DNA of 64,000 nt from Pseudofrankia inefficax (lineage in GTDB: Bacteria > Actinomycetota > Actinomycetes > Frankiales > Frankiaceae). The DNA is taken from positions 3,100,001 through 3,164,000 of the forward strand of contig NC_014666.1 in NCBI RefSeq assembly GCF_000166135.1. Reading direction: 5' to 3'. The notes below the pieces were generated by a model. It worked only from the letters and a program-made list of their open reading frames with translations. It was not told the origin of the DNA and made no database searches. Below are positions 49,000 through 60,141 of the stretch, in pieces (the stretch's first letter is position 1; each line of letters opens with the position of its first letter). A program made the translations under genes and the position numbers.

Positions 49000-49638
49000 C
49001 TACCTGGCCGGCATCAGCAGCAGCACGGCGGCTCCGAGCCCGCAGAGCAGATAGCACTGGCCGACGAGCCCGGTGCTGCAGGAGCGCAGGGTCAGGCGGA
49101 GCTGGTCGCGGCGGGACGCGAAGCAGGCCGGGCGGGAGGCCCGCCGGCCGCCGAACACGAGCGGAACGCGCGCGCCGACCGGCACCGGCCTCAGCAGCGG
49201 AAGCCGGGTCCGGTGGGTCTGGCCGTCGTCCGTGACATAGCTGACGACCGCCCAGCACGGTGCGGCCACCGTCTGGACCAACCGCGAGGTGTGCACGCCC
49301 TCGACGACACCGACGCCCCGGACGCCCCGGTGCTGGCGACCGGCCCTGGACCACAGGTCGAGACCGGGCAGCAGCGCGAACAACGCGACGGCCGCCCACC
49401 AGACCGTCGCCGGGACGCCCTCGTGGTCGGTCAGCGCGGCCGCCGTCGCCATGAGGAGCACCGGCACGACGACGAGGATGACGAACACGCAGACCAGGCG
49501 CCGGTCCGCCCCCTGCCACCGGTCCGGCGCGTCGGCCGCGCGGACCGGGCGCCACCTGGCCCGGGAGTCCCTCGGGTCGTCGCTGGCGACGATGTCGGCG
49601 CCGGTCGAGGCCGCGTCCCCCCGCGGTGCCTGGTCCAC
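49000..49638 (-). CDS. membrane protein of unknown function
   Basis: A 212-residue protein with hydrophobic segments at roughly residues 48-68 (LVCVFVILVVVPVLLMATAA), 79-97 and a C-terminal anchor (YLLCGLGAAVLLLMP). Between them is a soluble stretch. GTG 49638 has GAGGAGG eight bases upstream. No family recognised. Convergent with the NAD(P)-binding gene (5-bp gap). Confidence 0.65.
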   Translation of the reverse strand: MDQAPRGDAASTGADIVASDDPRDSRARWRPVRAADAPDRWQGADRRLVCVFVILVVVPVLLMATAAALTDHEGVPATVWWAAVALFALLPGLDLWSRAGRQHRGVRGVGVVEGVHTSRLVQTVAAPCWAVVSYVTDDGQTHRTRLPLLRPVPVGARVPLVFGGRRASRPACFASRRDQLRLTLRSCSTGLVGQCYLLCGLGAAVLLLMPAR

Positions 49639-49710
49639 CGTCGCCGCCTCCTCGGACCCTGGGCGCCGGGACGGCCGCCCGCGGCAGGGCCGCCCACTCT
49701 CCCAGGCGAA

Positions 49711-50103
49711 TCAGCCGGCGGGCAACCGCTTGCCGGGCCTTCGCGCCTGGACCAGCTGAACGACATTGCCTTCCGGGTCGACGCAGTCACAGTGCAGCGC
49801 GTCGCGGAACTCCCAGGCCGTGGCGGCGGGGCTCACCTGGCCGCCGAGGGCGCCGGCGACCGGCCGGAGCGCCTCGATGTCGGCGACCTCGAAGGCGAGC
49901 TTGACCGGCGTGTTCGAGCGCCGGTCCGGCGGCGTGGCGGTGGGCACCGCGTCGCCCGACCGGACGAGGGTGAGCAGCCAGGCGTCGGATTCCAACCCGC
50001 GGTAACCGTCCGCGCCGTCGGCGGGGGTGAGCCCGAAGCAGCCTTCGTAAAAGGCGCGCATGCGTTCCAGGTCCCCGACGTAGATGACCGCTGCCGCCCG
50101 CAT
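49711..50103 (-). CDS. VOC family (glyoxalase/bleomycin resistance-like) protein
   Basis: A 130-residue VOC domain protein (AAVIYVGDLERMRAFYEGCFGL, then VKLAFEVADIEALRPVAGALGGQV and CDCVDPEGNVVQL). Metal ligands may include the terminal Glu in DPEGN. Function could be a dioxygenase, isomerase or ligand-binding protein. It is divergent from the ethylene-forming-enzyme-like gene with only 99 bp between starts. Confidence 0.82.
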   Translation of the reverse strand: MRAAAVIYVGDLERMRAFYEGCFGLTPADGADGYRGLESDAWLLTLVRSGDAVPTATPPDRRSNTPVKLAFEVADIEALRPVAGALGGQVSPAATAWEFRDALHCDCVDPEGNVVQLVQARRPGKRLPAG

Positions 50104-50202
50104 GAGCGAACCTTACCGGTCACGCCTGCGCTACCGTCGCCACGACGCAACGCCCTGCCAGAACGCGGATTCTTCTTGAGGGGCGCGCAGAGAGGGACCG
50201 AC

Positions 50203-51219
50203 ATGGCCGGCCTTCAGACCTTCCAACTCCCCGACTCGGTGGACGGCACCCCGCTCGACCTCCAGTTGGCCCAGGAACTGGTCCGCGCGTGGCGGACCGA
50301 CGGAATCCTCCAGGTGGCGACCGACCCGGCGCAGAGCCGCAGGACACACGCGGCCCTGGAGTCGAGCAGGCGCTTCTTCAGCCAGCCCGCCGCGGTCAAG
50401 GCCAGCTGTATCAGCGATCTGACCTTCAGCGGATACATAGCCTCGGGAGAAGAGCGCACGGCGGGCGAGCCGGACTACTCCGAGATCTTCACCGTCTGCC
50501 CAGACGTACCGTTGGACGACCCCAGGGTCCGGGCGCAATGGCCCTGCCATGGCCCGGTTCCCTGGCCCGATGACGAGTACGAGCGCGCCATGACGGCCTT
50601 CATGGCGGGGCTGGGCGTCATCGGCGAGAAACTGCTGAGACTGGCGGCGCTGGGACTGGGCCTCGACCTCGACACATTGACGAGCCTGACGCGGGATGGC
50701 TGGCACCACCTGCGGGTGCTTCGCTTTCCGGCCCGGTCCGCGCGGACGAGCCGGGGAATCGGAGCTCACACCGACTACGGGCTCCTCGTGATCGCCGCGC
50801 AGGACGACGTCGGTGGCCTCTACATCCGCCCGCCGGTCGACGGCGAGCGGCGCACCAGGAACTGGCTGCCGACCGAAAGCATGGCCGGCAGGTACGAGGA
50901 CGACGAGCCCTGGACGTTCGTGGAGCCGGTGCCCGGCGTCGTGACGGTCTTTCCCGGCGACATGCTCCAGCTCATCACCGACGGATTGCTGCTCTCCACC
51001 CCGCACAAGGTGCGGCTCAACACCCGCGCGCGATATGCCCTCGCGTACTTCCACGAGCCGCGCTTCCAGGCCCGTATCCGGTCGGTTTCCGGGGAAAATG
51101 ACGGCGATTCCCTGCATTACGGAAGCCATTTCACCAGAATGTTCATGCGCTCCTACCCCGAGCGCGTCACGACCCGGCGGATCCTCGCCGAGGACCGGTT
51201 GTCGCGCCTCGTCCGGTAG
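50203..51219 (+). CDS. efe: ethylene-forming-enzyme-like 2-oxoglutarate/Fe(II) oxygenase
   Basis: The 338-residue protein aligns without gaps, over residues 1-318 as I recall the sequence, with the Pseudomonas syringae ethylene-forming enzyme (350 residues). Iron ligands His189, Asp191, His268, the 2-oxoglutarate Arg277, and the arginine-binding residues Glu84, Thr86, Arg171, Tyr192, Phe283, Arg316 and Tyr318 are conserved; Cys317 is replaced by Ser. The segment GIGAHTDYGLLVIAAQDD is nearly identical. That family makes ethylene and CO2 from 2-oxoglutarate and, in a side reaction, hydroxylates L-arginine to guanidine. ATG 50203 has AGAGGGA upstream. No partner gene seen; the VOC gene is divergent. 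Confidence 0.88.
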   Translation: MAGLQTFQLPDSVDGTPLDLQLAQELVRAWRTDGILQVATDPAQSRRTHAALESSRRFFSQPAAVKASCISDLTFSGYIASGEERTAGEPDYSEIFTVCPDVPLDDPRVRAQWPCHGPVPWPDDEYERAMTAFMAGLGVIGEKLLRLAALGLGLDLDTLTSLTRDGWHHLRVLRFPARSARTSRGIGAHTDYGLLVIAAQDDVGGLYIRPPVDGERRTRNWLPTESMAGRYEDDEPWTFVEPVPGVVTVFPGDMLQLITDGLLLSTPHKVRLNTRARYALAYFHEPRFQARIRSVSGENDGDSLHYGSHFTRMFMRSYPERVTTRRILAEDRLSRLVR

Positions 51220-51553
51220 GCACCACGTCGCGGAGCGGGACGACGTCGGCGCCTTCCGGGCTGCCTGGCGCGACACGCCGGGCCACGTAGGCGCGCCGTA
51301 GGGCACCAGCTTGCTGCCTATTGACAGATTTCGGGATGGTGGACCATCATGCGGGACCTTCAGGTTTCCTGCTGATCGGAGCCTGGTGCAGGCAACCATC
51401 CGTGTCCGCCGAGCGACCACCGAACAAACCTTTCGCCAGCCGGCCGGCATCGACCCAGCCGGTCCGCGCGGCGTTCCCGACGAGCCAGACACCGGCGCGC
51501 ACCACAAAAGTCAGTCTCGTATTCAGCCGACGCCAACGGCAAAGGTGGAGAAC
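51220..51553. other. intergenic region before a binding-protein gene
   Basis: A 334-bp stretch with no gene seen. It contains TTGACA (51321-51326) and a CAGGTTTCCTG box (51361-51371), described separately. No other structure is apparent. Confidence 0.5.
51320..51380 (+). promoter_or_regulatory. promoter region sharing box and spacing with the MarR promoter
   Basis: ATTGACAG (51320-51327) and a 21-base stretch from 51360 to 51380 (19 of 21 identical to 42965-42985) are spaced as in the MarR/crotonase promoter (41 versus 40 bases). The stretch contains CAGGTTTCCTG. The same MarR protein probably binds both. Confidence 0.55.
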
Positions 51554-52894
51554 ATGTCGCACATTGGGAGACCGAACCGTCGACGGGCTGGAACCCGGCC
51601 ATTCCGGTCCGCCACCGCCCGCCAGTTACCCACCCGCCCGGTCGGGTTACGCCTGGCCGGCGTCGCGGTCGTCGCCGCGAGCCTGGCCTTCGTCTCGGCC
51701 TGCGGCGGCTCCGGCGGCACGGGCGCGGCCCCCGCGCCGGCGAGCGGTTCCGCCGGCCAGGCCGACATCCTCGGACCGGTGGCCAAGGCCACGGGCGCGC
51801 CCATCACGATCGGCGTGATCACGGACGGCGCCAGCCCGGTCGCCGATCACACCAACGACAACAAGGTCGCCCAGGCCACCGCCAAGTGGCTCAACGACCG
51901 CAGGTCCGGCCTCGGCGGCCGGCCGCTCGACATCACGATCTGCGAGACCCTGGGCGACCCGGCCAAGGCGACCGACTGCGGCAACCAGATGGTCGAGAAG
52001 GGCGTCGCCGCCGTCGTCATCGGTACCTCCAGCGTCGTCGACAGCGCCTGGAAGCCCCTGAACGACGCCAAGATCCCCGTCATGATCTACGGGTCCGGTG
52101 ACCCGAGCCTGCTGTCGAGCCCGACGACCTTCAGCCTCGGCAACCCGACCTTCCCGATCATCGACCTGCCGATCCAGGTCGCGAAGGACAAGGGCAACAA
52201 GAAGGTCGCCGCCATCGTGATCGACGTCCCGGCGGCCCTGCACTCCGCCCAGGACGTCGCGCCGCCGCTGTTCAAGAAGGCCGGCATCGGCTACGAGCTC
52301 GTCCGGGTGGCCCCGGGCACCGCCGACATGACGCCCCAGATGCAGAAGATCGCCTCGGACGGCTCCGACCAGGTCTTCATCATCGGCAACGACTCGTTCT
52401 GCATCAGCGCCATGAACGGCCTGAAGCAGGTGGGCTTCACCGGCACCATCAGCGCCATCTCCCAGTGCATCACCGACGCCACCCGCAAGGCGGTCTCCGC
52501 CAGCACCCTCAAGGGCATCGTCGTGAGCGCCACGGTGCCGATCGGCCCGGCCAGCCCGTCGATGGACCTGTTCACCAAGGTCGCCGAGACCTACGGCAGC
52601 GGCATCGACCTCAGCTACCAGGACGGCATGATCATGTTCTCGCTGGTGGCCGGCCTCCAGGCGGCGACCCAGGGCATCTCGGGTGACATCACCCCGGCGA
52701 CCATCACCTCGACCATCAAGGCGATGAAGGAGACGGCGCTGCCCGGCGCGGCCGGGCTGAAGTTCCGCTGCAACGGCAAGGCCATCCCCGACCAGCCCGC
52801 CGTCTGCGTGCTCGGTGGCCTGACGACGACCCTGGACGACAAGGGCCAGCCCACCGCGTACAAGGTCCTCGGCAACACCCCGATCCCGGCCTGA
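51554..52894 (+). CDS. ABC transporter substrate-binding lipoprotein (branched-chain amino acid type)
   Basis: A 446-residue lipoprotein: arginine-rich start, hydrophobic stretch and lipobox VSAC near residue 53, then the periplasmic-binding fold (ITIGVITDGASPVADHTNDNKVAQATAKWLND, LGGRPLDITICETLGDPAKATDCGNQM). ATG 51554 has GGAG four bases upstream. No transporter genes adjoin. A promoter segment shared with the MarR region suggests it imports a precursor of the acetoacetate-type pathway; inference. Confidence 0.88.
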   Translation: MSHIGRPNRRRAGTRPFRSATARQLPTRPVGLRLAGVAVVAASLAFVSACGGSGGTGAAPAPASGSAGQADILGPVAKATGAPITIGVITDGASPVADHTNDNKVAQATAKWLNDRRSGLGGRPLDITICETLGDPAKATDCGNQMVEKGVAAVVIGTSSVVDSAWKPLNDAKIPVMIYGSGDPSLLSSPTTFSLGNPTFPIIDLPIQVAKDKGNKKVAAIVIDVPAALHSAQDVAPPLFKKAGIGYELVRVAPGTADMTPQMQKIASDGSDQVFIIGNDSFCISAMNGLKQVGFTGTISAISQCITDATRKAVSASTLKGIVVSATVPIGPASPSMDLFTKVAETYGSGIDLSYQDGMIMFSLVAGLQAATQGISGDITPATITSTIKAMKETALPGAAGLKFRCNGKAIPDQPAVCVLGGLTTTLDDKGQPTAYKVLGNTPIPA

Positions 52895-55495: not shown

Positions 55496-56123
55496 GTGAA
55501 GGGGAGCAATGCGCCCCACGTCGCCGGGCCCTCACACCGGGCCCGGATCGGGGCTGGCGGCATGGGCGCGGTCTACCTGTCCTACACCCCGGGCGGGCGG
55601 CGAGTGGCGATCAAGGTCGCGCGGCCGGAGTTCGCCGACGACCCGGAGTTCCGCCGCCGGTTCACCGCCGAGGTGACGATCGCCCAGCGCGTGCGGGGCC
55701 TCTACACGGCACCCGTCATCGACTGCGATGGCACGCGGCCCGGCCCTGGCTCGCCACGGCCTACGTGCCGGCTCCCTCGCTGGCGGCGACGGTCGCCCGC
55801 CGGGGGGCGCTCGCGGCGGAGTCGGTCCTGCTCGTGATCGCGGGCGTCGCCGAGGCGCTGCAGGCGGTCCACGCCGCCGGAGTGATCCACCGCTCCGACC
55901 TCGCGAGACTCGCGCCGTGGAATGGTTCCGGAGCGCCGACGCCCGCCGAATGCGCACGGGTGCTGCGCACCCAGCGGGAGTCGTCGATCAGCAAACACAC
56001 CGGCCTGCGGTTCTGCGTCGCCGGTTACGACACCGGCCACCTCGCGGCCGGCTATGTGCGGTCGTACAGCGGCGGAGTCAGCCAGATCCAGGTGACGTCT
56101 GGAGCGCCACCCTCGGCAGCTGA
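55496..56123 (+). pseudogene. decayed Ser/Thr protein kinase gene
   Basis: The start encodes a kinase N-lobe (IGAGGMGAVYLSYTPGGRRVAIKVARPEF). At about 55735-55745 the frame changes, and the new frame continues PWLATAYVPAPSLAATVARRG... and stops at HRSDLARLAPW, where HRDLKPSN should be. After this a C-terminal domain remnant (PTPAECARVLRTQRESS) follows with no catalytic lobe or transmembrane segment, and a last frame shift gives VWSATLGS before TGA 56123. So the gene lost its catalytic loop, DFG region and membrane helix and cannot be a kinase. It lies between the MFS gene and the acyltransferase. Confidence 0.8.
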
Positions 56124-56151: not shown

Positions 56152-58053
56152 TCAGGGGCGGGCGGGGTCCGTGGCGAGCAGCTGGTCGAGCTCGGCGAGG
56201 GCCTCGCGCAGCCGGTCGGCGAACGCGTGCATGCCGGCGGCCACCGGGCGCGGGGTGCTCAGGTAGATGTTCAGCCGGTCCGCCAGCAGCACGTAGGCGA
56301 TGCCGATGCACTTCCCGCTGGTCGAGCCGAACCCGAAGTACTCGATGTTCTCCGACGGGGCGGAGCTGGTGCTCAGGTAGTCGTCGCGCATCACCAGCCA
56401 GCCCGGCGACTCGTACAGCGGAGACGCCGCCGGCACCCCGAGCTCGGCGCCGTGGCGGCGCTGGATGAAGGCGAGCTCCCACAGGTGCTGTTCGGGCGCG
56501 TCGCCGCGCTGGCAGTCGCCGGCCCGGCGGACGTGCGCCCCGGCCGCGGCGCGCAGCGCCTCGCGGCGGGTGGCCGGGTCCGCCGTCGGGTCGTTCATGG
56601 CCGCGACGAAGGCCAGCACCTCCGGCGTGACGACCCGCATCGCCTCCGTGCGCCCGTAGCGCCACTGGCGGGTGGCGATCGACTCGTAGGTCGCGCCGAT
56701 CAGGCCCTTCGCCCGGTGGTGCGCGAGCTGGTAGGCCAGCTGCACCAGCGCGTCCGGTGAGATCCGCAGCGCCTTGGACCGGTCGGCGCCGTGCTCGGGG
56801 AAGGTCAGCGCCACCGACGCGGTGTCCGCGCCGAACTGGGTGAACGCCTGGGCCGCCGCCCGGATGTCGGCCCGCAGCGCCTCGTCCAGGACGAAGGTGA
56901 CGGGCCGCACCGCCGGGCGGCCGTGCGCCCGGGCGCCGGAGCGGGCCGACAGCTCGGCGGCCGGCGCGGCGAGCAGCTCGTCGACGAAGCTCAGGATCGT
57001 GGTGCCGTCCAGCCCGCAGTGCTCGACGTTGATCCCGGCCTGGCCGTTCGGCAGGACGACGAACGAGACCGCCTTGTCGTACCAGCGGCCGGCGGCGCTG
57101 CCGTACAGCAGCTGGTCGCAGGTGGCGATCCGGTCCGGCGGGGTGACGTGGTCGAGGCAGACGCAGAACAGCGCCCGCTCGACGTCGTCGAGGGCGACCG
57201 CGTTCGCCGGGTCGAGGGCGAGCAGCGCCGCCCGGCTGCGGGCCCAGTCCGCGCGGGCCTTCGTGGTGAGGTGCCCGACGGCGGTGTCGTCCGGCGCGGG
57301 CGTCAGGTCGGCGGCGGCCAGCACGTCCACCAGGCCGGTGGCCAGCTCGGCGAGGGTGTGCGGGGTGCCGTCCGGGCCGAGCACCTCCAGCTGGAACATC
57401 TGCCCCCGGCGGAACACGAGGACGTGGCGGGCGTCCGACGGGCCCGGCCACGCGGCGCTGTAGGGCACCCGGACGGTGTCCTGCTCCAGGCCGGGGATCC
57501 GGGTGGTGGAGAACAGGAACCGGTTCTGCACCATCGACTGGGGCTGGCCGCGCCGCACCAGCGGCGGGATGCGCTCCGCGTCCAGCCGCAGCTTGTAGTC
57601 GAGCGCGGCGGCGATCAGGCCGGCGGCCCGCTCGACCTGCGGGCCGCCCGGCAGCGCCTCGGCCGTGGGCGCGGGCACGGCGTCGCGGAACAGGAAGAAG
57701 AAGTTGGCGTTCAGCGCGATCCGGTCGCGGCGGCCCAGGTAGCGGGCGGGCCAGAACTCGTCGAGCCAGCTGTGGACGCCCTCGCTCGCGTCGAACGCGG
57801 CGAGCTGCGCGTGCAGCGCGGGCCCCGGCCCGTCCGGCGCGAGGAACTCGGCGACGGCGGCCTCGGTCGCGGCCAGCTGCTCGGCGGTGAGCAGCGGGGC
57901 ACACCAGTCCAGGAACCGGGCGCAGCTCTCCGCCAGGCCGGGCAGCGGGACGCGGGGCAGGCTGTCCTCGTTGTCGAAGGTGCCCGTGGCGGGCACCATC
58001 CCGCCCGTGGGCGCGGCGGTGGTGGCGGCCTCGCGGCCGGTCTGGACGGTCAT
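56152..58053 (-). CDS. carnitine/choline acyltransferase-fold enzyme
   Basis: A 633-residue protein of the carnitine/choline O-acyltransferase family (Pfam PF00755-like), rare in bacteria. Catalytic His345 lies in NVEHCGLDGTT; Tyr456-Glu-Ser458 and Thr469 (GRTEAMR) keep the spacing of carnitine-binding residues of mammalian CrAT, and STS is at 561-563. The position of CrAT Arg518, which binds the carnitine carboxylate, is Gln522 (EQHLWEL). So it should transfer an acyl group from CoA to a hydroxy compound that is not necessarily carnitine. ATG 58053 has GAGGAAG upstream. Third of three co-directional genes with a methyltransferase and a 2-oxoglutarate oxygenase. Confidence 0.87.
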   Translation of the reverse strand: MTVQTGREAATTAAPTGGMVPATGTFDNEDSLPRVPLPGLAESCARFLDWCAPLLTAEQLAATEAAVAEFLAPDGPGPALHAQLAAFDASEGVHSWLDEFWPARYLGRRDRIALNANFFFLFRDAVPAPTAEALPGGPQVERAAGLIAAALDYKLRLDAERIPPLVRRGQPQSMVQNRFLFSTTRIPGLEQDTVRVPYSAAWPGPSDARHVLVFRRGQMFQLEVLGPDGTPHTLAELATGLVDVLAAADLTPAPDDTAVGHLTTKARADWARSRAALLALDPANAVALDDVERALFCVCLDHVTPPDRIATCDQLLYGSAAGRWYDKAVSFVVLPNGQAGINVEHCGLDGTTILSFVDELLAAPAAELSARSGARAHGRPAVRPVTFVLDEALRADIRAAAQAFTQFGADTASVALTFPEHGADRSKALRISPDALVQLAYQLAHHRAKGLIGATYESIATRQWRYGRTEAMRVVTPEVLAFVAAMNDPTADPATRREALRAAAGAHVRRAGDCQRGDAPEQHLWELAFIQRRHGAELGVPAASPLYESPGWLVMRDDYLSTSSAPSENIEYFGFGSTSGKCIGIAYVLLADRLNIYLSTPRPVAAGMHAFADRLREALAELDQLLATDPARP

Positions 58054-58069
58054 CCTGGTCGTCTTCCTC

Positions 58070-58103
58070 ATCGTGGTCGTGGCGGGATCGTGGTCGTGGC
58101 GGG
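58070..58103. repeat. 17-bp direct duplication
   Basis: TCGTGGTCGTGGCGGGA-like 17-bp unit occurs twice in tandem just before the acyltransferase start. No function evident. Confidence 0.5.
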
Positions 58104-58198
58104 CGGCCTGGGCGGGTCCCGACACTGGACGCGCGGCAGCCGACCGGCGCTCGGCTGGTCATGGCACGGGTGGACTCATCCTGGCGGTTGCCAGGCAC

Positions 58199-58226
58199 CG
58201 CTGTGACGTATTCGCTGTGACGGATT
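58199..58226. repeat. 14-bp direct repeat in acyltransferase upstream region
   Basis: CGCTGTGACGNATT occurs twice head to tail, 17-44 bases past the methyltransferase stop and about 150 bp before the acyltransferase start. It could be a regulator site (GTGACG/CGTCAC core). Confidence 0.35.
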
Positions 58227-58242
58227 CGCGCCGATCGGCTTC

Positions 58243-59115
58243 TCAGCGTGACTCGGGTGGGCGGGAGATGAACAACTGGGCGTAGAGCCAGCCGTCGGCC
58301 TCAAGCCCGCGCGGATCGACCCCGACCCCCGCCAGCGTCGCCAGCACCTGGTCCCGCTCCTGCGGCGAGGCGAACCGGCGCTGCTCGAACATCCGGTCGA
58401 CGGCCACGGTCTGGTAGCCGAACCCGGCCAGCGTCTCGGCGATCGGGTCGAACGGGAACATGCGCAGCGTGAAGTGCGCCATCCACGGCAGGCCCGGACG
58501 GCCGCCCCCCGCCGTCTCCCCGGGCCCGGGGGCCGCGGACCCGCCGGTGGCGGCCGTGACGATCCGGGTCAGGGTCCGTCCGGTGACGTAGCCCAGGCAG
58601 CCGGTCGAGATGACCAGGTCCACGCCGGCGAGGCGGGCCCGCTCCGGCTCGGTCGGATCCCGGGACTCCAGGTCCGCGTGCAGCGCGTCGTCGAGGAACC
58701 CGGCGTCGAGGGCGTAGGACAGCGCGGGACCGGACGCGTCGAGCCCGACCACCTCGATGTCCGTCGCGCCATCGCGCGCCGTGGCCAGCGCCCGGTCGCG
58801 GGCCACCAGCGCCGCCCGGGTATTCGCGTCGACCGCCAGGCTGTCCTCTCCCGCGTAGCGGTCGTACAGGTCGTCCATGGCGACGTCGAACTTCAGCAGC
58901 GCCGCGTTGACGCCATAGGAGCAGCCGACGTCGAGCACGCGCAGCCGCTGGTCCGGGCGCGTTTCCTGGCATTCGTCGATGATTTTGGAGAAGTACGGTT
59001 TGGCCAGCTGGGGGAGCCGGTAGTCGAGCGTGCGCAGCGTGCGGAAGTACGCGCGCGGGTCGGGCTGGTTGTAGACGTGCTCCAGTGAAACCTTTCCGGT
59101 CGCGTCGAAATCCAT
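58243..59115 (-). CDS. class I SAM-dependent methyltransferase-like protein
   Basis: A 290-residue protein with motif I RVLDVGCSYGVNAALLKF at residues 59-76, and IEVVGLDASGPALSYALDAGFLDD and VDLVISTGCLGYVTGRTL later. It would bind S-adenosylmethionine and methylate a small molecule or amine; no substrate-specific family was recognised. AGGAG eight bases before ATG 59115. It sits between the oxygenase and the acyltransferase, so a role in N-methylation of the same metabolite is possible. Confidence 0.75.
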   Translation of the reverse strand: MDFDATGKVSLEHVYNQPDPRAYFRTLRTLDYRLPQLAKPYFSKIIDECQETRPDQRLRVLDVGCSYGVNAALLKFDVAMDDLYDRYAGEDSLAVDANTRAALVARDRALATARDGATDIEVVGLDASGPALSYALDAGFLDDALHADLESRDPTEPERARLAGVDLVISTGCLGYVTGRTLTRIVTAATGGSAAPGPGETAGGGRPGLPWMAHFTLRMFPFDPIAETLAGFGYQTVAVDRMFEQRRFASPQERDQVLATLAGVGVDPRGLEADGWLYAQLFISRPPESR

Positions 59116-59134
59116 GGTCGGTGCTCCTCTCGAT

Positions 59135-59226
59135 CCGCCCGTCAACGGGCGGTCAGGGCGGGCATCGGTCCGGAATGCTCGGTCCGGAAATGGGCGGGCG
59201 GGAATGGGCGGGCGGGAATTCCCGCC
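59135..59226. terminator. two hairpins and repeats between oxygenase and methyltransferase
   Basis: CCGCCCG TCAA CGGGCGG (59135-59152) is a perfect 7-bp hairpin 20 bases before the methyltransferase start. GGCGGGAATTCCCGCC (59211-59226) is a perfect palindrome 22 bases past the oxygenase stop. Between them CGGTCCGGAA and ATGGGCGGGCGGGA occur twice each. Could terminate or attenuate the transcript. Confidence 0.4.
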
Positions 59227-59247
59227 GGCGGGGGATCTGCTCGCCGG

Positions 59248-60141
59248 TCAGTCGAGCAACGCGTCCACGCGAACGGGCTGTTCGGCCGCCCGCTCGTGCG
59301 CGGGAAGCACCCGGCCGAACAACTGCCTGGTCCTGGACAGGCTGCCGACGACGCCCGGCCGCGCGCTGTAGGCGAAGATCACGCTGTGTCGCTGCTCCGG
59401 GCCCGTCACCCGGCTGACCCGGTGCAGCGAGTACCGGCCGAGGAAGAGCTGGAGGTCGCCGGGCCGCAGCCGCAGCCGCCGGACGAACCGGTCGCCGTCG
59501 CCCGCGAGCACGGCCGCCACGTCCTCGACGTTCTCCTCGGCCGCGGACCGGATGCGCGGGCAGTACTCGAACACGCCGCCCCGTGCCTCCTGGGTCAGCA
59601 GGCTCACCGCGAACTCGTTGGTGTCGAAGTGCCAGGGGTGCTCCCGCCCGGGGGCGACCACGTTGACGCACAGGCCCGCCAGCGGGTCCGCCAGCTCGTG
59701 CACGGCGGGCAGCTCGAAACAGGCCGCCACGAAGCGCTGGAACGCGACGCTGGTGTAGAGCCGCTCGACGGGATGGTCGGCCGGGATGCGGTCCCGGGCG
59801 ACGAACGCGTTGCCGCGCCGCATGCTGACCCGCCCCGGGTGCCCCGGCGGCAGCGGTGTCCCCGGCGCGATGTTGTACGCGTTGACGGTCTCGTCGCCGT
59901 AGTAGGCCAGCGGCGCGAGCCGCGCGCACTGGTCGCGCAGGCGTTCCAGCGCCGCGGGCCGGACGAATTCCGGAAGCACACAACAGCCGGACGCGGCCAG
60001 CTCGCGCCGGACACCCTCGATGAGTTTCCCCTGGTCGGCGCTCTCCTGGGGCGCGAACAAGGGGTAGGCCTCGGTGTTCACGACGGCCTCGACCGCCTGG
60101 GCCGTCGCGAGGTCGTCAGTGACGGTCTCGGGCCTGGTCAC
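59248..60141 (-). CDS. 2-oxoglutarate/Fe(II)-dependent amino-acid-type oxygenase
   Basis: A 297-residue Fe(II)/2-oxoglutarate oxygenase: His171-x-Asp173 in PWHFDTNEFAVSLLTQ, distal His240 (GRYSLHRVSRVTG), and Arg251 for 2-oxoglutarate. FEYCPRIRSAAEENVEDVAAVL and the HxD arrangement resemble BesD/HalD-like enzymes that act on free amino acids; halogenases of that group lack the Asp, so this should be a hydroxylase. GTG 60141 has a perfect GGAGGG six bases upstream; longer frames lack one. First of a three-gene series with a methyltransferase and a carnitine-acyltransferase-like gene. Paired GACCGGTAA sites lie upstream. Confidence 0.8.
   Translation of the reverse strand: MTRPETVTDDLATAQAVEAVVNTEAYPLFAPQESADQGKLIEGVRRELAASGCCVLPEFVRPAALERLRDQCARLAPLAYYGDETVNAYNIAPGTPLPPGHPGRVSMRRGNAFVARDRIPADHPVERLYTSVAFQRFVAACFELPAVHELADPLAGLCVNVVAPGREHPWHFDTNEFAVSLLTQEARGGVFEYCPRIRSAAEENVEDVAAVLAGDGDRFVRRLRLRPGDLQLFLGRYSLHRVSRVTGPEQRHSVIFAYSARPGVVGSLSRTRQLFGRVLPAHERAAEQPVRVDALLD

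Follow-up and report, generated by a model that had tools for sequence, protein, structure and literature searches.

The three genes described here occupy positions 56152-60141 of a 64,000-nucleotide stretch of the genome of the soil bacterium Pseudofrankia inefficax (RefSeq assembly GCF_000166135.1, contig NC_014666.1, positions 3,100,001 to 3,164,000 of the forward strand), which is called the window below. They are three open frames, all on the minus strand and with nothing else encoded between them, for an Fe(II)/2-oxoglutarate oxygenase, a class I S-adenosylmethionine (SAM)-dependent methyltransferase (MT) and an acyltransferase of the carnitine/choline-acyltransferase fold (CAT). The products of this trio almost certainly serve one pathway. 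Here it is proposed tentatively, at somewhat less than even confidence, that the trio is a metabolic module making a carnitine-like ester via N-methylation, hydroxylation and short-chain O-acylation. In the proposed route, which would run in this order on a common substrate, the MT would methylate a small amino acid or a derivative of one, most likely on nitrogen; the oxygenase, a member of the BesD family, would hydroxylate an unactivated carbon of the MT product, using Fe(II), 2-oxoglutarate and O2; and the CAT would esterify the new hydroxyl with a short chain, probably acetyl, taken from acyl-CoA. The ester might serve as an acyl/CoA buffer, a solute or a signal.

Conservation of the oxygenase-MT-CAT unit

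Ninety-seven genomes, that of the window included, were searched with each of the three proteins, and the oxygenase, the MT and the CAT were found in an identical set of 31. All 35 genomes of the same family carry either all three genes or none, with the trio present in 30 and absent from five, some of which are small or incomplete assemblies; one further carrier belongs to another family. The genes are contiguous in 30 of the 31 carriers, the exception being a genome (G009) in which the oxygenase and CAT genes flank an MT remnant and another contig carries a second MT-CAT pair.

Among named genomes, a contig scan based on an alignment of oxygenases returned 420 relatives, from which the best 80 loci were kept. 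The order oxygenase-MT-CAT on one strand is found in 77 of these best 80, including one locus (L104) whose MT and CAT are split over frames and another (L127) whose CAT is truncated where the contig ends. The genera with the trio include Frankia and its allies, Actinomadura, Spirillospora, Streptomyces, Amycolatopsis, Saccharopolyspora, Actinophytocola, Actinokineospora, Kibdelosporangium, Gandjariella and Nocardia, the named loci nearest to that of the window being those of Frankia sp. AgB1.9 and Pseudofrankia asymbiotica. In five of the 80 loci (Streptomyces specialis, Gandjariella, Protofrankia, Candidatus Frankia californiensis and Frankia CiP1), the MT and the CAT form a single open frame. 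The pairwise protein distances of the three genes correlate, with r of 0.84-0.88 that none of 999 permutations reached (75 loci with long enough matches), although species relatedness alone would also raise r. An earlier note on this DNA had made its reading of the trio depend on the genes being kept together in related genomes, which they are in both genome sets.

Among 396 genomes sampled from the phylum, profile matches to the oxygenase, the MT and the CAT were found in 26, 19 and seven genomes, respectively, and the complete trio stands together in five. The CAT adjoins the oxygenase in six of its seven genomes; the seventh match (G220) is remote and lies in a genome without an oxygenase match. 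Sixteen neighbourhoods were read among the other 20 oxygenase matches, which are weaker, and no MT or CAT of the trio type was found in the stretch fetched, some of these being short contigs; likewise, no oxygenase or CAT of the trio type was found in the stretch fetched for 10 of the other 14, remote, MT matches. On plasmids, no relatives of the CAT were found at E 0.001.

Families and catalytic residues of the three enzymes

The oxygenase gene (59248..60141, minus strand, 297 aa) begins with GTG, preceded by GGAGGG, and the MT gene (58243..59115, minus strand, 290 aa) begins with ATG, preceded by AGGAG; both upstream motifs are plausible ribosome-binding sites. The oxygenase scores 41-42 bits with the Pfam model HalD (PF23169; cut-off 26), and this model also matches all 12 members of set A1 (matches up to E 1). 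Its AlphaFold2 model (pLDDT 89.8) has the BesD-type double-stranded beta-helix fold, with BesD-family entries as the top rows of the fold searches (Foldseek, VIA-align). The protein is thus a member of the BesD/HalD family, which acts on free amino acids, in agreement with the free-amino-acid hydroxylase traits that the earlier note had seen in it, and by analogy with this family it may act on a free, carrier-unbound amino acid too. The BesD, HalA, HalB and HalD halogenases and the lysine hydroxylase Hydrox (PDB 6NIE, 7U6H-7U6J, 7JSD, 9OER-9OEW) are 14-18% identical to it; unlike them, it stands in a row with an MT and a CAT.

An identity as a phytanoyl-CoA dioxygenase, the grouping that would have spoken against the earlier note, is not supported: the Pfam model PhyH does not match the oxygenase of the window and does not appear among the families listed for 12 members of the set (up to E 1), and the BesD family comes first by both sequence model and fold. 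PhyH does match two distant oxygenase relatives, below cut-off. The fold rows that come after BesD, four Z units lower, are SnoN and SnoK and later HygX and MysH, and include PhyH-like enzymes.

The HxD...H triad of the oxygenase (H171, D173, H240) is invariant in 38 trio, four close and 22 distant sequences. Asp173 is kept in all 38 trio oxygenases, with no halogenase-type Gly replacing the carboxylate that binds the iron, so the enzyme is of the hydroxylase type rather than a BesD-type halogenase. Residue equivalences to characterised enzymes were taken from sequence alignment, not structural superposition, and those of the CAT were assigned by eye. BesD H137 is named as a contact to the substrate carboxylate (PMC13244439). 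Its equivalent, H168 (window positions ~59638-59640), is present in 38/38 trio and 4/4 close oxygenases and in 0/22 distant relatives; it is shared by the trio and BesD yet absent from relatives that are closer overall to the trio. Arg104, present in 36 of the 38 trio oxygenases, lies one column off the equivalent of BesD R77, and the lid residues (the D239 and W241 contacts) did not align.

The MT has a Rossmann fold and motif I, which place it among the class I SAM methyltransferases and bear out the earlier note's call of a SAM methyltransferase. Only generic methyltransferase Pfam models match the window protein, below cut-off, and such models match all 11 members of set A2 (up to E 1). 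Its AlphaFold2 model (pLDDT 88.4) likewise matches class I methyltransferases only generically, and neither PDB profile nor fold gave a specific subfamily.

The CAT gene (56152..58071, minus strand) starts at codon 58071 or 58053. The gap between the oxygenase and MT genes (59116..59247) is 132 bp, and that between the MT and CAT genes (58054..58242) is 189 bp if the CAT starts at 58053; both are gene-free, so the arrangement described in the earlier note is correct. The protein matches Carn_acyltransf (PF00755) with E 8e-154 over profile positions 1-573 of 574 and carnitine acetyltransferase (CrAT) in the PDB with E 6e-63, and its profile aligns with human CrAT over the whole length (E 2e-96). 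With CrAT numbering and residue roles as in the CrAT literature, the catalytic His343 is present in 75 of 75 sequences and the STS motif in 28 of 28, as befits the carnitine/choline-acyltransferase-fold enzyme that had been noted earlier. This whole-length likeness, with the catalytic His, the STS motif and a Thr465-type residue, extends to CPT2, carnitine octanoyltransferase (COT) and choline acetyltransferase; the CAT differs from the PF00755 acyltransferases in being bacterial and in standing beside a hydroxylase and an MT, to which it is sometimes fused. Of the acyl-gate residues, Asp356 is retained (28/28) and CrAT Met564 is replaced by Phe (75/75), positions at which CPT2 has Asn and Gly. 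Because the gate residues are as in CrAT, or bulky as in CrAT, the CAT is predicted from its sequence to use short acyl groups. The Phe at the Met564 gate, where Gly is seen in CPT2, speaks against a long-chain CPT/COT type.

Distant relatives and flanking genes

Neighbourhoods of distant relatives on plasmids were read for 18 hand-picked records, comprising six of the 92 with oxygenase relatives and 12 of the 23 with MT relatives. In three of the six oxygenase neighbourhoods (Rhodobacteraceae M382, Alisedimentitalea and Mesorhizobium WSM1497), a gene of the trimethylamine-methyltransferase family (MTTB) lies 1.2-5.3 kb away. The clusters of M382 and Alisedimentitalea are of a single type that also includes a solute transporter and FAD-dependent oxidoreductases, of which the one tested, from M382, has DAO and GCV_T domains, and the Mesorhizobium WSM1497 neighbourhood has a Rieske oxygenase. 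In two others (Pseudomonas MPC6 and Caballeronia SBC2), an M24 creatinase/prolidase-like gene is adjacent. Among the MT relatives, that of Mesorhizobium AR07 has genes for a sarcosine oxidase, a lyase, purU and a 2-oxoglutarate oxygenase nearby; that of Rhizobium binae, genes for M24, purU, RidA and a D-amino-acid dehydrogenase; that of M. amorphae, two 2-oxoglutarate oxygenase genes within 4 kb; and those of R. lusitanum and Roseibium, a protein with an HxD...H pattern. Enzymes of the MTTB, sarcosine-oxidase, GCV_T and creatinase-like types act on N-methyl or quaternary amino compounds, and by analogy these neighbourhoods of some distant relatives hint at an N-methylated substrate for the trio.

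Some of these loci have features of their own. Two marine Rhodobacterales plasmids (L172 and L175) share a cluster with a HalD-family oxygenase, an ABC transporter, an MTTB-type methyltransferase, one or more FAD-dependent oxidoreductases, two aminotransferases and an aldehyde dehydrogenase, which looks like a cluster for the catabolism of some betaine. M24 creatinase/prolidase-like genes stand at L157, L158 and L167, beside distant oxygenases (Caballeronia, Pseudomonas) and a distant MT (Rhizobium binae). At L147 and L148, the distant HalD-family oxygenases come directly after frames that resemble, by eye, the E2 components of 2-oxo-acid dehydrogenases. In a rhizobial/Roseibium operon (L161, L163), a relative of the trio MT lies beside an HxD protein with the motifs WHADG and MHRV, a pattern read as typical of 2-oxoglutarate oxygenases, and an arylmalonate-decarboxylase/Asp-Glu-racemase-like protein; it differs from the trio in having no CAT. 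The two HxD proteins (L161 6871-7641 and L163 6918-7682; ~255 aa, 56% identical) have no match to Pfam families or PDB chains and possibly represent an undescribed family of 2-oxoglutarate oxygenases.

A fourth member of the unit is not claimed, as no flanking gene recurs widely across genera. In 20 loci of 19 relatives, no flanking frame of the window recurs in at least three loci, the trio and its shadow frames apart, and in 16 loci of 12 genera drawn from the 80, the most recurrent flank is found in three of the 12 genera; this flank (L120 12302-13318) resembles, on reading by eye, the ATPase of an ABC transporter. Across the 80 named loci, the loci listed for the 19 most recurrent flank frames (up to 12 for each) are all of Actinomadura, where flanks are shared and synteny within the genus is expected. 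The window itself has, at 55496-56000 on the plus strand, what looks like a broken kinase gene: a Ser/Thr kinase N-lobe (Pfam model Pkinase, E 0.005, which is under the cut-off) whose likely continuation, by eye, is in another frame. Further away, at ~50200-51219 on the plus strand (in frame 49213-51219), there is a second 2-oxoglutarate oxygenase (DIOX_N and 2OG-FeII_Oxy); the frame after it, 51311-52894, encodes a periplasmic binding protein (Peripla_BP_6).

Proposed pathway and alternatives

Several observations weigh against an N-methylating route to a carnitine-like ester. Because H168 is not common to the distant relatives, confidence in this route was lowered a little, from just under even; the distant oxygenases lacking it (32-50% identical) possibly have other substrates. 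BesD Asp143, the acidic contact to the lysine ammonium, is Thr174 in all 38 trio oxygenases, and no acidic residue aligns with BesD Glu123, which falls on Leu154 or Ala/Ser155 depending on one gap, with an invariant Asp152 nearby; the Thr makes it less probable that lysine, ornithine or arginine, which the earlier note had named for assays, is bound in the BesD manner. The CAT acceptor site, from its residues, fits neither carnitine nor choline enzymes: Ala106 is replaced by Arg, Thr467 by Ala and Arg518 by Gln, and Thr465 is kept (each 75/75), a Thr/Ala/Gln combination at 465/467/518 unlike the Val/Asn/Asn of choline acetyltransferase. Arg is seen at the 518 position in both CrAT and CPT2, where it is the contact to the carnitine carboxylate; its replacement weakens carnitine itself as the acceptor, and the arginine that binds the acceptor may now stand at position 106. 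Neither MTTB nor M24 genes were seen in the neighbourhood of the Pantoea oxygenase relative, nothing of the kind described above in five of the 12 MT neighbourhoods (Methylosinus, Bradyrhizobium, S. goshikiensis, S. meliloti and S. atratus), and none of the trio's partners in two more, whose records are without annotation. Finally, the MT model ties among C-, N-, O- and RNA methyltransferases in the fold searches, and the MT is missing between the oxygenase and the CAT in three of the 80 loci (L086, L134 and L135) and in G407 of the phylum sample, where the two genes are adjacent. In the genome of L134 and in G407, no MT was found anywhere at E 0.001; the genome of L135 has a remote one elsewhere (E 9e-70), and that of L086, taken to be G009, has the MT remnant and the second MT-CAT pair described above.

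The main rival, somewhat unlikely in itself, is one pathway in which the MT is not an N-methyltransferase and makes instead a carboxyl methyl ester or an O- or C-methyl group; the product would be an O-acylated hydroxy amino acid or its ester, with the oxygenase and the CAT as core and the MT optional. The loci without an MT between the other two genes fit this, as does the generic fold of the MT, whose first Foldseek rows include the carboxyl methyltransferases BioC and LahSB, and the Gln in place of the carboxylate-binding Arg in the CAT is what would be expected if the acceptor had no free carboxylate there. Against it, some of the distant MT and oxygenase neighbourhoods point to N-methyl amino acids. 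The earlier proposal that the trio hydroxylates, N-methylates and O-acylates an amino acid is thus upheld in part: co-conservation and the oxygenase family speak for it and the distant neighbourhoods weakly favour N-methylation, but the two genomes in which no MT was found make it doubtful that the MT is always needed.

A catabolic or detoxifying module, acting on an environmental or plant betaine or a toxic amino acid and acylating it for storage or export, is quite improbable. Some distant relatives do lie in catabolic-looking clusters with transporters and demethylase-type genes; however, since no flank recurs beyond three of 12 genera, no fixed transporter, demethylase or dehydrogenase accompanies the trio. 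Less probable still is a true bacterial carnitine route, in which the MT would trimethylate, for example, GABA to gamma-butyrobetaine, the oxygenase would convert this to carnitine and the CAT would form acetylcarnitine. The reaction types and the CrAT-like gate of the CAT are compatible with it, but the acceptor positions 106, 467 and 518 differ from those of CrAT, and the known gamma-butyrobetaine hydroxylases are of another, TauD-like family. That the three genes are functionally unrelated and kept together by shared transcription only is hardly credible, given that each of the 35 family members has all three or none, that MT-CAT fusions exist and that the flanks differ, even though oxygenases and MTs of these families are also found where the other genes are absent (the CAT hardly is, with one remote match in 396 genomes).

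The proposed N-methylating route resembles eukaryotic carnitine biosynthesis (trimethyllysine and gamma-butyrobetaine hydroxylases) followed by carnitine acyltransferase in its logic, with an N-methyl amino acid, a 2-oxoglutarate-dependent hydroxylation and an O-acylation, and differs from it in that the unit includes neither an aldolase nor a dehydrogenase. The hydroxylases of the eukaryotic route belong to an oxygenase family other than that of the trio. No description of the trio was found in the open-access literature, which is weak evidence, as most subscription papers lie outside that scope; to this extent, the earlier statement that no described pathway has this exact trio holds. The combination and its product appear to be new, and the parts belong to known superfamilies.

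The conservation of the trio over several actinobacterial families, together with the rare fusions of MT and CAT, is good evidence that a metabolite has gone unrecognised. A further reading, unlikely but with some chance of being right, is that three enzymes suffice actinobacteria, nitrogen-fixing Frankia among them, to make an analogue of carnitine and to esterify it with short acyl chains. Such a pathway would be the bacterial equivalent of the carnitine/acetylcarnitine system of eukaryotes, based on another oxygenase family, and would serve as an acyl-group or CoA buffer or as a secreted quaternary-amine ester. If the product were a hydroxy-betaine ester, bacteria would have a carnitine-like chemistry of their own, and the BesD family, prized for the C-H functionalisation of free amino acids, would gain with this oxygenase a class of substrates new to it.

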